In this document: piece after piece, positions 58,765-64,000 of the stretch
Position numbering within the stretch: position 1 is the stretch's first letter
Layout: every line of letters starts with the position of its first letter
NCBI RefSeq assembly: GCF_005491705.1
Contig: NZ_CP028092.1
Coordinates: forward strand, 1,054,001 to 1,118,000
Reading direction: 5' to 3'
DNA: 64,000 nucleotides
DNA from: Pontibacter sp. SGAir0037
GTDB taxonomy: Bacteria; Bacteroidota; Bacteroidia; Cytophagales; Hymenobacteraceae
The notes under the pieces: generated by a model
The model's input: only the letters and a program-made list of their open reading frames with translations
What the model was told of the DNA's origin: nothing
The model's database searches: none
Made by a program: the position numbers and the translations under genes

Positions 58765-59856
58765 CTAGCCTTTCGTGTACCTGCCGTTTATTTCAAGCAG
58801 GTAGTTGCTGCAGGTATGAAGAGCAAGAACTGTAATAGTCAGAAACATTCCCGGAAAAAATACCAACCACCAGGCTGCAGTGTTGGAGCGAATGCCTGTA
58901 ATTATCCTGCCCCAGCTAGCTATATTTGCAGGCATGCCGATACCTAAAAACGATAAGGTTGACTCTAGAGCCATTAAACCTGCCGTACCAAAGATAAATG
59001 CCACTACAACTGGTGCCAGTATATTGGGTAGAGCGTGTTTCATAATCAATCTTCTATCGCTGACACCCAAACTGTGAGCGGCTTCAAAGAATGGTAAGTG
59101 TCGTACCCGTAGCATTTCGGCCCGGGCCAGTCTGGCTGTACTGGTCCAGCTGGTAAGTATAAGCAGAACAGACAGGTAAAAAAGAGAAGGAGGTAGAAAA
59201 GAGGCTACCAAGATGATAAGTATAAACCTGGGAACACTGGAGAAGAGCTCAATCAGGTGTAGTATAGCTTTATCTAAGGGAAAGTAAACCTTATGCTTTA
59301 AAAAGGGGGCCTGATTGAGTAATGGCAATAGTAATTTCCAGAGTAAAACGGTAAGAACCAAAAGGCATACGATGCAGCTAAGTGCTTTTTTTAGCGTTAA
59401 TGCCGCGCCAAGATTGACAGGAAGATACAGACAGAAATATAGCCAGCAGCATAGCCACAAAATGCAGATAAGCATTTTGCTTCTACTTAAGCGAGCACGA
59501 TTATCGCCGTAGTAACCGGCATAGGCTCCTAGCAGCAAACCCAAAAGCGAAGTAATAACCATTACAGGAATGCTGATCAGGAAAGCGGACCTCGCACCAA
59601 AAAGCAAGTTTACCAACACATCGCGCCCAATACCGTCAGTACCCAGCCAATGAACAGCTGTATCCGTTCCCCCGTTTTCCCGGCTGAAAGGAGAAGTAAA
59701 AAGATGTTCTAAGTCTAATTCGTTAGGTTGATAGGGAAGCGGGAGCCAGGGAAGCAGCAGTGTGACAATAAATACTATAGCAAGGTAAAGCACGCAAACT
59801 CTGAAGATGGCCTTATGCTTGAATAAATGGGCTATGTTACTGAAAACTGTTCTCAT
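58765..59856 (-). CDS. Peptide/nickel-type ABC transporter permease (DppC/OppC-like)
   Basis: The 363-residue membrane protein is longer than the usual ~300 of OppC because of an insert of about 60-70 residues after the second helix (YGDNRARLSRSKMLICILWLCC to LLNQAPFLKHKVYF), itself containing extra helices. The family EAA loop is FFEAAHSLGVSDRRLIMKHALPNILAPVVV, followed by ALESTLSFLGIGMPANIASWGRII. The N-terminus has LGTDGIGRDVLVNLLFGARSAFLISI, as in OppC/DppC. Its start overlaps the preceding permease gene by four bases (ATGA). It is the last gene of the operon; no OppD/OppF ATPase follows. Confidence 0.9.
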   Translation of the reverse strand: MRTVFSNIAHLFKHKAIFRVCVLYLAIVFIVTLLLPWLPLPYQPNELDLEHLFTSPFSRENGGTDTAVHWLGTDGIGRDVLVNLLFGARSAFLISIPVMVITSLLGLLLGAYAGYYGDNRARLSRSKMLICILWLCCWLYFCLYLPVNLGAALTLKKALSCIVCLLVLTVLLWKLLLPLLNQAPFLKHKVYFPLDKAILHLIELFSSVPRFILIILVASFLPPSLFYLSVLLILTSWTSTARLARAEMLRVRHLPFFEAAHSLGVSDRRLIMKHALPNILAPVVVAFIFGTAGLMALESTLSFLGIGMPANIASWGRIITGIRSNTAAWWLVFFPGMFLTITVLALHTCSNYLLEINGRYTKG

Positions 59857-61244
59857 GAATTTTGAAAACGAATACGGGGATCAGCCAAAGTATAAAATAT
59901 ATCGGCAACAAAGTGAGCTACAACTTTAAGGACTGCCACCGCTAAAATAATGGCTACTATAACGGCATGATCTCTGGCTAAAACCGATTTTACCAGCAGT
60001 GTACCGATGCCTGGTATGGCAAAAATTGTTTCAATGATAACAGCTCCTGCAAACAAAGCCGGTATAAAATCGGCCAATAAGGTTATGATAGGTAATAAGG
60101 CGTTCCGCAGTATGTGTTGCCTGATTACCTGACGCTTATCAAGGCCTTTGGCTCGGGCAGTTCTGGCATAATCACTCTGTGCACTATCGGCCAAAGCCCT
60201 GTAAAACTGGTTAACCAGGTAAGGTAAATTTGCTAATACCAAGCAGCAGACAGGAAGCACCATGTAAGGCATCTGATACAGGAGGTTTGCTATACCCATT
60301 TCTGTTTCAGAACCCGAATAATAGCCTAAACCATAAACCGGGAATACCTGAAGAAAGGATGGACTGGCAAACAGGACCAGCAGTACCAGCGCCAGCACAA
60401 AAGTAGGTATACTGTTTATAAGAATCAAAACCGTAGATAAATAGCGGTGAAGTGTTCCCCGCTCTTGCCGCAACATTAGTATGCTTAGCTTCAGTGCTGC
60501 AAAAGCTGCTATAACCATACTGAGCAGCACAATAAAAAAAGTATTGCTTGTATAGTTACTTAAGACTTCGAGCACAGGTCGCCCATCCCGTTCAGATACA
60601 CCAAAATCCCCCTTTAAAAGTTGCTTAAACCAGTTATGGTACTGGTTGCCGGTTCCATGCCAGGTAATGTGGGGTAACAGGTAGGCTAATTCAGCCTGAT
60701 TTAACATAAGTAAATGCAGGCTGGACCGGAGTTCTTTTACAGCAGTTAAAGTGCATGGAGAAGAGGCCTTTATCTCTACATTCTTAAGTGCAGGGGTGAT
60801 GTTAGCTGACTTAACCTGCGTGTATAGCATCTCAAGATCAGGCTGGACCAATCTTCTTTCTTCTGGTGTCAGGCTTTTGTTGAGCATCTGGAGCTTCTGG
60901 TAGTAAGTTGCTACAGAAGGCCAATGCCCATAGTGCCAGGCAATTTTTTTTACCAGTTCCCTTTCTGCTTCAGGGTAAACCAAATGCAAGGTGTCCGGCT
61001 CTACCACTGATCTAACACTGAAATAGAAAAGAGGTTTGTCTTGTCCGGTTCTGGAAAGATATTGTCGGTAAGCTTTCAATCTGGCTTGCGTGGAGGAGGT
61101 GCCATATAAGCCTCCTTCTTCCTGCAAAATATACTCGGAGGCTGAATCTCCTGGTAAAAGCCTGCTAACAAAAAATACGCATGATGCCATTACCAGAAGT
61201 GCAGGTACAGACAGGAACAGCCTTTTGAGCAGGTATGGCAACAT
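59853..61244 (-). CDS. Peptide/nickel-type ABC transporter permease (DppB/OppB-like) with a large extracytoplasmic insert
   Basis: This 463-residue protein has the expected N-terminal helix (LLKRLFLSVPALLVMASCVFFV) and then about 170 residues of mostly soluble, helical sequence (to about 205) before the motif GDFGVSERDGRPVLEVLSNYTSNTFFIVLLSM that normally follows the first helix by some 70 residues. The EAA loop is DYARTARAKGLDKRQVIRQHILRNALLPIITLL. A typical OppB has 305-340 residues, so roughly 130 extra residues sit on the periplasmic side. It overlaps the OppC-like gene by four bases and follows the binding-protein gene by eight. The insert may dock the substrate-binding lipoprotein. Confidence 0.9.
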   Translation of the reverse strand: MLPYLLKRLFLSVPALLVMASCVFFVSRLLPGDSASEYILQEEGGLYGTSSTQARLKAYRQYLSRTGQDKPLFYFSVRSVVEPDTLHLVYPEAERELVKKIAWHYGHWPSVATYYQKLQMLNKSLTPEERRLVQPDLEMLYTQVKSANITPALKNVEIKASSPCTLTAVKELRSSLHLLMLNQAELAYLLPHITWHGTGNQYHNWFKQLLKGDFGVSERDGRPVLEVLSNYTSNTFFIVLLSMVIAAFAALKLSILMLRQERGTLHRYLSTVLILINSIPTFVLALVLLVLFASPSFLQVFPVYGLGYYSGSETEMGIANLLYQMPYMVLPVCCLVLANLPYLVNQFYRALADSAQSDYARTARAKGLDKRQVIRQHILRNALLPIITLLADFIPALFAGAVIIETIFAIPGIGTLLVKSVLARDHAVIVAIILAVAVLKVVAHFVADIFYTLADPRIRFQNS

Positions 61245-61252
61245 TATTGTTA

Positions 61253-62971
61253 CTATTTTAAAATAAAGGCACCAACATCATAATTAGGTTTAAGTCCAGA
61301 AACTTTGGTATTGCCAAACCTTTTATGAATAGCTAATTTATCTTTTTGATAGTAGAGCGGAAGAAAAGCAGCTTCGTCATGAATGATCTCCTGCAAGCGT
61401 TTTAGCTGCTTACTCTTGTTTTCTGTGTCTTCGGTAGCAAGTATCGCATCTAACAGGTAATCACTTTCAGGAGTGCCAAAACCAGTATAATTAGCACCTC
61501 CCACTTCTGCATAGGAGGTATGCAGAAGTGGCTTAAAATTAAAGACAAAGGGATTTCCGTGCAAAGAGCGGAAAAACAGATCAAACTCATGCGATTTAAT
61601 TTTCTTGCTGACCATGCTGCTTTCCAAGGCCATTAAAGAAACCGGAATCCCTACCTGTGAGGCCGCTTGTTGAAAAATAAGGGCGGTGTTTTCAAATACT
61701 GTATTACCCGCTCTATAAATTATTTCGATGGTAAGCTGCTGCTTTTGCCCGTTAATATTCTGATACCAGCCTTGGCTTTCTTTTATCCATCCAGCCGCTT
61801 TCAGCAGATCAATGGCATGTTCTTTATCGAACGTATAGGGTTTTATTCCGGTGTGGTAAAACTCTTTGGCAGAAGGAGGAACAGGCCCTATTGTTTTGGT
61901 AGCATAGTTTTGATGCGTCACCTTTATAAAATTATCTACATCCATCAACCAGGCAATGGCCTGCCTGGTTCTTTTGTCAGAGAATTTAGATAATCTGCTG
62001 TTAAGTCCTGCATACACAAATTCGTAGGCATCTGGTGAATACAGGTTATAGTTCTGAGAAAAGTTTTGATCCTGCTTCAATTGATCGAATTCAGTGGCGG
62101 CAATATCACTTAGTACATCCAGTTGCTCATTTTTGAGAGCGAGTAAGGCGGTTGTATTTTCAGGAATAATTTGAAAATTAATTCTGGAGGGGTTAGCGGT
62201 AAGATAGGTGGAGGCTGAACCTGTGTTTTTCCCCCACCAATTATCTTTTCGTTTCAGAGTGATGTATTGGCCTGAACTCCAGGAATCGAGTTCATAACCG
62301 CCGCTACCTTTTAAAAGCTCTTTGTTTCGGGCGAAATCAGAGCCATTGAATCGTGTAGCAAATTCATTAAATTCAGTATTCTGCTCAAGTTGGGCCTTTC
62401 CAGAAACCAGATCGGCTATACTTACCTGTTGCATAAGCCCGTTCGGATCGAATACTTTGGCTGGTAATATAAAAAAGTCACCAGCCACTAATTCCATTTC
62501 AGGGCTAAAGCCCTCGCAAACAAAAGTAAATTTTCTTTCATTGGCAGGGTCTGCAATAAAATCAGTTATAAATTCCAACTGAGGTTTTAGCCTTCCATTA
62601 TTCAGGAGCGGCGCTTTAATTAATTTCAAAGTGAAAGCAACATCGCTTGCCAGAACAGGACTCCCATCGCTCCATTCCGCTTCCTCCCGAATTGTAAACG
62701 TGATATACGTCAGGCTGCCCCGACGTTCGATCACCGGATAAGACTCAGCTAAAACCGGCTTTAATTCATTATCTTCCAGATCAGCACCTAATAAGCTCTG
62801 ATACAGTAACTTAATGAGTTGTTCAGCTTGTATATTAGTATAGCTGACTGGGTTTAAATTTTCTGGGTCTGCAGAAATATGCACCCTTACTTCTTCTGGC
62901 TGGTTTTGATATTGGCCACAAGAGCTGAAAATTATAATGAATGAAAAAAAAAGTAAAATCTTATTCCACAT
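61253..62971 (-). CDS. Peptide-type ABC transporter substrate-binding lipoprotein (OppA/DppA family 5)
   Basis: Starting from the ATG at 62969-62971, the 572-residue protein has a lipoprotein signal (LLFFSFIIIFSSCGQ). Family-5 features follow: ISADPENLNPVSYTN, EEAEWSDGSPVLASDVAFTLKLI (the conserved W-DG-P block), SGQYITLKRKDNWWG, RQAIAWLMDVDNFIK, and AIDLLKAAGWIKESQGW. Such proteins capture oligopeptides, dipeptides or nickel. The longer frame uses TTG at 63001 and lengthens the region before the signal, so it is not preferred. It follows the 57-residue microprotein gene by 74 bases and the permease genes follow immediately. Ligand unknown. Confidence 0.9.
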   Translation of the reverse strand: MWNKILLFFSFIIIFSSCGQYQNQPEEVRVHISADPENLNPVSYTNIQAEQLIKLLYQSLLGADLEDNELKPVLAESYPVIERRGSLTYITFTIREEAEWSDGSPVLASDVAFTLKLIKAPLLNNGRLKPQLEFITDFIADPANERKFTFVCEGFSPEMELVAGDFFILPAKVFDPNGLMQQVSIADLVSGKAQLEQNTEFNEFATRFNGSDFARNKELLKGSGGYELDSWSSGQYITLKRKDNWWGKNTGSASTYLTANPSRINFQIIPENTTALLALKNEQLDVLSDIAATEFDQLKQDQNFSQNYNLYSPDAYEFVYAGLNSRLSKFSDKRTRQAIAWLMDVDNFIKVTHQNYATKTIGPVPPSAKEFYHTGIKPYTFDKEHAIDLLKAAGWIKESQGWYQNINGQKQQLTIEIIYRAGNTVFENTALIFQQAASQVGIPVSLMALESSMVSKKIKSHEFDLFFRSLHGNPFVFNFKPLLHTSYAEVGGANYTGFGTPESDYLLDAILATEDTENKSKQLKRLQEIIHDEAAFLPLYYQKDKLAIHKRFGNTKVSGLKPNYDVGAFILK

Positions 62972-63045
62972 ATTGCTCCAATATGATAATGATAGGAGCA
63001 ATATAGGGAAAAGGCATTACAGAGAAAATTATATTTGAATACTTC

Positions 63046-63219
63046 TTAGTCGTTATCGGCCCAAGTTGTTGATCCTCCAAAAGTTGAGATAGTGCTACTC
63101 TGAGAAGATGTGGTTGTTGTACTAGATTTAGTAGTTTCTACAGTTTTGTCTTTTGCATCTCCATTTCCTGATAGAAGAATAGCTAGGTTAAGTAGAACGG
63201 TTGTAACAATTGCTCCCAT
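63046..63219 (-). CDS. 57-residue Ser/Thr-rich microprotein heading the Opp-like operon
   Basis: No known family was recognised. ATG at 63217-63219 and TAA at 63046-63048 enclose a hydrophobic N-terminal segment (GAIVTTVLLNLAILLS, residues 2-17), a short charged stretch (GDAKDK), a region of residues 26-47 that is nearly all Ser and Thr, and a C-terminus FGGSTTWADND. The N-terminus could be a signal or a membrane anchor. The gene is the first of the minus-strand operon that continues into the binding lipoprotein and two permeases. Just upstream is a perfect 13-bp inverted repeat. It could be a secreted signalling peptide, a small transporter subunit or a precursor for a modified peptide. No modifying enzyme is visible. 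Confidence 0.6.
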   Translation of the reverse strand: MGAIVTTVLLNLAILLSGNGDAKDKTVETTKSSTTTTSSQSSTISTFGGSTTWADND

Positions 63220-63241
63220 GATAGTTGTTGTTTCTGTTATT

Positions 63242-63270
63242 GATTATACTACAAATATTGTAGTATAATC
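63242..63270. promoter_or_regulatory. Perfect 13-bp inverted repeat, operator candidate
   Basis: GATTATACTACAA and its exact complement flank a three-base centre. It lies 23 bases upstream of the microprotein ATG and 212 bases upstream of the divergent gene. No T-run adjoins on either strand, so a terminator is unlikely. On the minus strand its centre contains AATATTTG, one mismatch from the TAnnTTTG element, so a bound protein would cover the promoter. Confidence 0.65.
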
Positions 63271-63482
63271 AGCTCAAAAAAAGGAAGGTTTGATTTATAA
63301 AGTAACTATGATTTTATTTTAGATAAATATTCTTATTTTATAAATAATGATACAGTATCTTTTATTTATAAGGCGAAAAAATAGTATTGATAGTATTTAT
63401 TGTTCTATTTGTTAAATATTATTTTGATATTTATTGAAGAAAGTAACATTTAGGATAATAATATTAAAAATTAAATATTTAA

Positions 63483-64000
63483 ATGGAGGAACTAATAAAG
63501 ATTTCTAAAATAGTAAAGAATAGTCATAATCTTAAAACTGTGCTTCCAGTTAATTATAAATCTCGCAGTTTAGAAGCTGAATTTCTCATCAAGCTTGAAA
63601 ATGGTGAATTTGTAAGTGATTATGAAGCAGCACAATACTTTTATAGGTCTGATAATAATGATGTTAAGTATAAAATGCTTAAGCACAGGTTGAAGAAAAA
63701 ACTTTATAACAAGTTATTTTTTGTAGATTTTAGTAAAGTTAAGTCAAAACCGTTTTATGAAAAAGAGCATGAGTGCATATCTCTGTTATTACAGGCAAGA
63801 GTACTATTAAGACAGAATGAAAATGAATTATCTTCTATTATTGCAAAAAAAGCATATAATATAGCTGTCGAATATGATTTTACTAGTTTTAAAGCTGAAG
63901 CACTGGAATTAATTTTAACATGGTTAACTGAAAAGGGAGATTTAAAAAAATTTAAAATAACAGATAAAGAGTTAAGAAACGTTTATCAATTAATTAGTCT
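63483..64000 (+). CDS. Unrecognised, probably helical (TPR-like) cytosolic protein, 3' part missing
   Basis: The frame runs from the ATG at 63483 to the window edge, 172 codons with no stop. The sequence has no signal peptide or membrane segment. The N-terminal part (EFLIKLENGEFVSDYEAAQYF, then KYKMLKHRLKKKLYNKLFFV) is basic. From about residue 95 paired amphipathic helices appear (CISLLLQARVLLRQNENELSSIIAKKAYNIAVEYDF, FKAEALELILTWLTEKGDL) with TPR-like spacing. The DNA is strikingly A+T-rich: 20 G or C of 60 bases at 63541-63600. It is divergent from the microprotein and Opp-like operon and is a plausible regulator, but no DNA-binding motif was confirmed. Confidence 0.6.
   Translation, partial: MEELIKISKIVKNSHNLKTVLPVNYKSRSLEAEFLIKLENGEFVSDYEAAQYFYRSDNNDVKYKMLKHRLKKKLYNKLFFVDFSKVKSKPFYEKEHECISLLLQARVLLRQNENELSSIIAKKAYNIAVEYDFTSFKAEALELILTWLTEKGDLKKFKITDKELRNVYQLIS

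Follow-up and report, generated by a model that had tools for sequence, protein, structure and literature searches.

Organization of the locus

The window analyzed here is a 64,000-nucleotide stretch of the Pontibacter sp. SGAir0037 chromosome, and the features under study lie toward its end (Table 1). A short gene for a candidate peptide precursor (MICRO) heads an operon with genes for a binding lipoprotein (SBP) and two permeases (PermB and PermC), and faces a divergently transcribed gene for a protein that we call HEL.

Table 1. Genes and DNA elements of the MICRO-HEL locus, in window coordinates
Feature	Position	Strand	Remarks
MICRO, 57-aa peptide precursor	63046..63219	-	First gene of the operon
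SBP, family-5 peptide-type binding lipoprotein	61253..62971	-	Pfam SBP_bac_5, E 4e-57; lipobox FSSC
PermB, Opp/Nik-type permease, 463 aa	59853..61244	-	BPD_transp_1, E 3e-31
PermC, Opp/Nik-type permease, 363 aa	58765..59856	-	BPD_transp_1, E 2e-21
HEL, 5' part, divergent TPR-like protein (predicted)	63483..64000	+	Frame cut by the window end
Inverted repeat, perfect, 14-bp arms, 3-bp loop	63241..63271		Peculiar to this species
Promoter element AGTTACTT-N13-TTCCTTT	63280..63307	-	Lies ~60-88 bp before the start of MICRO

The initial annotation had read the operon as encoding a peptide-type binding lipoprotein and two permeases, and the SBP_bac_5 match together with the two BPD_transp_1 matches bears this out. 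The closest NCBIfam models of PermB and PermC are Opp4B and Opp4C, respectively, each below its cut-off, and SBP likely starts at the ATG at 62971, which is favored over a TTG at 63001. The locus thus contributes a family-5 binding protein and two permeases as parts of an Opp/Dpp-type importer, and the MICRO-SBP-PermB-PermC operon contains no ATPase gene. Away from the operon, the genome was found to encode a single OppDF-type ATPase, a fused protein of 604 aa (L187:9084-10898) with no permease genes beside it, and this ATPase may be the partner of SBP-PermB-PermC. The genome also encodes a second family-5 binding protein. At L271 (4723-4971) and at the matching place in L272, PermC is followed by a frame of 83-89 aa that shares an IGDYFVGI segment, has no Pfam family and is equipped with a promoter element of its own in a TTCCTGT form.

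MICRO is a conserved precursor-like gene

MICRO consists of an uncharged hydrophobic N-terminus (MGAIVTTVLLNLAILL), a Ser/Thr-rich linker and the C-terminal sequence FGGSTTWADND. A counterpart of 46-67 aa fills the gap between the SBP gene and HEL in all 37 Pontibacter loci, with a nearly uncharged hydrophobic start, a variable linker that is often rich in Ser, Thr and Lys, and GGxxxW near the C-terminus in 37/37. FGGSTTWADND and HGTGGWGDGYLAA are examples of putative C-terminal peptides from Pontibacter or Hymenobacter. Close pairs gave dN/dS values of 0.04-0.40, indicating from sequence comparison that MICRO is under purifying selection. When 41 genomes were searched with a MICRO profile, each gave a single strongly significant place, which was the HEL locus wherever coordinates were compared. 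Four of these genomes (G228-G231), having been left out of profile building, serve as a more independent check. We also looked for loss of MICRO in close relatives with intact Opp genes and found none (0/36). The earlier description of this 57-residue frame as a gene in its own right was therefore upheld.

The association with HEL was examined by means of a strict automatic filter for small frames, which detected one within 900 bp upstream of 59 of the 78 first-copy HEL genes of Pontibacter and its named relatives. When the remaining 19 were read by eye, 18 were seen to have such a frame, bringing the total to 77/78. The same filter detected none upstream of 30 tandem HEL copies and two upstream of 342 other genes, neither with a Trp tail; SBP was handled apart from the other genes in this control because it shares this upstream region. 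As the filter was shaped on Pontibacter sequences, a search for the promoter element by DNA pattern alone (see below) is the more independent check. The expectation that HEL homologues would be accompanied by small frames was thus borne out at the first-copy loci and failed in some distant HEL clades that show no precursor nearby. Taken together, conservation, dN/dS and the upstream-frame controls rule out a chance frame.

Many Pontibacter have further HEL copies in tandem downstream of the first (L036, L046, L052, L057, L064 and others), which brings the total to as many as four. These additional copies have no precursor of their own and form a separate clade in the tree.

The importer genes stay with the precursor

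Within the HEL/MICRO neighborhood, SBP is present at 77/80 loci and PermB plus PermC at 76/80. Genes for an MFS protein, an amidohydrolase and a nucleosidase are also common neighbors, almost only within Pontibacter. SBP and the permeases persist where these neighbors do not, and general synteny was accordingly rejected as the cause of the Opp linkage, which proved lasting. Two outgroup HEL loci (L070 and L156) keep the precursor and have no Opp genes, and the permeases are absent from L143 as well. Of two HEL copies in one Hymenobacter, L153 is accompanied by a precursor, and the second, L147, has neither precursor nor Opp genes.

The positive charges of a classical Sec signal are missing from the precursor N-terminus in nearly all Pontibacter. 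An uncharged segment of this kind could be a stable anchor, so that MICRO might be an unsecreted small membrane protein whose cytosolic tail holds HEL, with tail repeats (see below) acting as multivalent docking sites; the HEL-precursor pairs without Opp genes in some outgroups would suit such a role. However, two Hymenobacter precursors start with a Lys and continue with a hydrophobic segment that closes with ASA, resembling a Sec signal with its cleavage site, and anchoring would leave the Opp linkage in 76-77/80 loci unexplained. We consider it quite unlikely that the protein stays in the membrane, and MICRO is treated below as a candidate exported precursor.

Precursors of relatives carry repeated and clade-specific tails

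Precursors of the MICRO build facing HEL were found in Adhaeribacter, Rufibacter, Sabulibacter, Botryobacter, Hymenobacter, Rhodocytophaga and Imperialibacter. In many Hymenobacter the C-terminal unit is repeated, with 2-11 copies per precursor, such as seven HGTGGWGDGYLA units, three GGSSGWSDGN units or up to eleven HGTSGWGDGY-like units. Repeat copies within one such gene differ by 97 silent and 17 amino-acid codon differences, and those of another by 120 and 12. That the copies differ mostly at silent sites suggests that several near-identical peptides are kept by selection, and the tandem-repeat precursors give a strong prediction of a functional peptide. In Adhaeribacter soli, three precursor genes stand in tandem and share one tail. 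In distant clades the hydrophobic start is kept and the tails differ, as in those of DRxED type, and the tail type tracks the HEL tree (2 changes vs 8.3 when shuffled).

Short Gly/Trp-rich tails, repeated cores and a hydrophobic leader also occur in some RiPPs. On this likeness, MICRO could be an antimicrobial or modified peptide of the bacteriocin or RiPP kind, which HEL would regulate or confer immunity to and for which Opp would provide uptake or resistance. One RiPP precursor model matched, very weakly and below its threshold (E 0.096). By contrast, no modification enzyme or dedicated exporter gene was recognized at the listed loci, and a receptor-like partner whose phylogeny goes with the tail type better fits sensing. 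An antimicrobial function is accordingly held to be very improbable, and the tails are regarded here as putative signal peptides.

A HEL profile matched 37 of the 93 genera sampled in the order (E ≤ 0.001, some of them weakly) and 16 of the 155 sampled in the phylum at E ≤ 1e-10. One clade (L071, L075, L078, L214, L216, L218, L220 and L222-L224) has no recognizable precursor near HEL and a KKRVKKVELFDE-type N-terminus; its members may be receptors that lack a cognate signal. In a distant member of the phylum, three DRxED-tailed precursor genes lie beside one HEL (L191, minus-strand starts at 1841, 2912 and 3496). One genome (G133) has eight HEL matches, and Trp-tailed precursors with differing tails occur at three of the loci examined from this genome (L208-L213).

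HEL is a predicted TPR-like solenoid

The complete HEL protein is 496 aa in length (L002:4984-6474). AlphaFold2 models it as an all-helical solenoid (pLDDT 90.4, pTM 0.86), for which Foldseek returned TPR proteins, MalT domain III among them and none at E < 0.001. When the Foldseek matches were re-ranked by VIA-align, the top place was taken by a Rap protein with peptide (4gyo; Z 16.1, 291 aligned, rmsd 4.7) and ranks 1-4 were all Rap receptors, including phage and plasmid Rap, with RapI, NprR, AimR and RapH lower. However, the proteasome protein Rpn6, LGN and other TPR proteins are tied with Rap at Z 15-16, so the fold is no proof of peptide binding and we claim no RRNPP membership from it. 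We predict with confidence that HEL is a soluble TPR-like solenoid. Among its conserved residues are N302, W303 and N309.

HEL matched no Pfam or NCBIfam family with E values up to 1, these two collections revealed no homology to a known RRNPP subfamily, and 75 HEL relatives gave weak TPR and scattered Pfam matches only. In the model, the first 80 residues fold into three main helices, of which the third is conserved and basic. This domain (model pLDDT 74.5) had no Foldseek match, and the ComR DNA-binding domain reached a Z of 2.5 only. The suggestion that the divergent protein combines TPR with HTH thus survives for the solenoid, and the N-terminal domain showed no clear HTH match. HEL is RRNPP-like in its predicted build and, judged by sequence, not an RRNPP member.

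A promoter element, not the palindrome, is conserved

The initial annotation had placed a perfect 13-bp inverted repeat at the MICRO promoter and considered it an operator. The repeat is real, with the longer extent given in Table 1; it folds far better than shuffled sequences (z -5.7), and its core is unique to this site in the genome. However, it is missing at the corresponding position in all 36 other Pontibacter loci, so the palindrome is not a general operator and was rejected as such. What is conserved is AGTTACTT-N13-TTCCTTT-N~22-TTTG. The first two blocks were detected in 34 of the 37 Pontibacter loci and keep a fixed 21-bp register in all 34, followed ~22-23 bp past TTCCTTT by a -7-like TTTG, which at this locus falls within the palindrome. 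Variants of the element are recognizable in other genera.

A search of 50 Pontibacter genomes with the strict element gave 36 matches vs 0 for a reversed control, and most of them are MICRO promoters. The remaining sites precede genes for M57 and S8 peptidase lipoproteins, an RHS-repeat protein and a lipoprotein whose SprT-like match is below threshold, and sites with one mismatch include M36, S8-PKD and M23 genes. Searched as bare DNA, the Hymenobacter form of the element gave 16 sites in 200 genomes, 16/16 of them before a precursor gene. The putative regulon was sampled by such pattern searches, and the presence of one element before both the MICRO operon and genes for secreted peptidases points to feedback of the circuit on its own operon together with exoprotease control. 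A factor other than HEL may act at the element, which may also be a sigma-factor promoter.

A proposed peptide circuit

We propose a loop that draws on the precursor gene and the constraint acting on it, the repeated units, the parallel between tail type and HEL phylogeny, the Opp linkage, the predicted TPR-like fold and the common element, all of them read from sequence. MICRO would be an exported propeptide whose hydrophobic N-terminal segment directs exit from the cytosol. Extracytoplasmic proteases would then free a C-terminal Gly/Trp peptide with a core of about GG[ST]xxW plus a few residues, and the multi-copy precursors of many Hymenobacter would each deliver several copies. The SBP-PermB-PermC transporter would return the peptide to the cell, where binding by HEL would change gene expression, feeding back on the MICRO operon and controlling exoproteases; HEL may do so at the promoter element. 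Several points speak against this circuit: a secreted peptide would have to pass the outer membrane of a Gram-negative cell before uptake, some outgroup HEL loci keep a precursor and have no Opp genes, the operon has no ATPase gene, and most precursors have no positively charged N-terminus. We nevertheless regard export, cleavage, Opp import and HEL sensing of a MICRO-derived peptide as somewhat better than an even bet.

Given the peptidase genes under the common element, a reading in terms of proteolysis and peptide supply is allowed as well. MICRO could be a reporter substrate for proteolysis or nutrient sensing, an imported fragment of which would signal that exoproteases are working and peptides are available and would tune proteases and peptide uptake. 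The element before M57, S8, M36 and M23 secreted peptidase genes and the peptide-type importer within the MICRO operon both fit this, to which we give a small though real chance. However, species- and clade-specific conserved tails and multi-copy precursors better fit an identity-bearing signal, and a mere reporter need not diversify along with its receptor. The two readings overlap, use the same parts and are not exclusive.

With cell-to-cell signaling as the preferred reading, the arrangement in Bacteroidota suggests an undescribed bacterial signaling system. In its full form, the proposal is of a peptide pheromone system widespread in these Gram-negative bacteria. Its precursors would be polyprotein-like, its importer dedicated and its TPR receptor the representative of a separate family, and it would control exoproteases and have diversified into clade-specific pherotypes. 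We put the chances for and against it at about equal. If true, Bacteroidota gain a genetically encoded, species-specific signal, the question arises how the peptide crosses the outer membrane twice, and ready pairs of pherotype and receptor are available for testing.

Comparison with known systems

As in MalT domain III and other TPR regulators, HEL is a predicted TPR solenoid; unlike MalT, it has no MalT-type ATPase or LuxR-type HTH, and a peptide precursor gene faces it. ComX of Bacillus derives from a short precursor with a conserved Trp near its C-terminus, two traits shared by MICRO. By contrast with ComX/ComQ, neither a ComQ-like prenyl transferase nor a histidine kinase was seen at the locus, where genes for a TPR-like protein and an Opp importer take their place.

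RRNPP(A) receptors have an N-terminal HTH in all but Rap, and the regulons of NprR and PlcR include secreted proteases. Cytosolic TPR-receptor peptide signaling has so far been described for Gram-positive Bacillota and their phages, and RRNPP_detector, the broadest survey that we found, covers Firmicutes and viruses only (PMC10075063). The open-access literature searched yielded no report of a system such as the present one and no joint mention of RRNPPA and Bacteroidota. Besides its Bacteroidota host, the MICRO-HEL arrangement differs from RRNPP(A) in that receptor and precursor have no detectable sequence relation to it, HEL has 496 aa and a three-helix N-terminus not recognized as HTH, the gene order is divergent, the importer genes lie inside the precursor operon, and the precursor has an uncharged N-terminus in most species and up to 11 peptide copies. 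Multi-copy peptides are themselves reported to be common in AimR, NprR, Rap and PlcR propeptides (PMC9765709), and precursors of RRNPP-type peptides are matured by extracellular proteases (PMC11343458). What the arrangement has in common with the RRNPP(A) systems of Bacillota (especially Rap-Phr, NprR-NprX, PlcR-PapR and AimR-AimP) is a small precursor gene adjoining that of a soluble TPR-type protein, a conserved and sometimes repeated putative C-terminal peptide, oligopeptide permease genes and a putative regulon that, like those of NprR and PlcR, includes secreted proteases.
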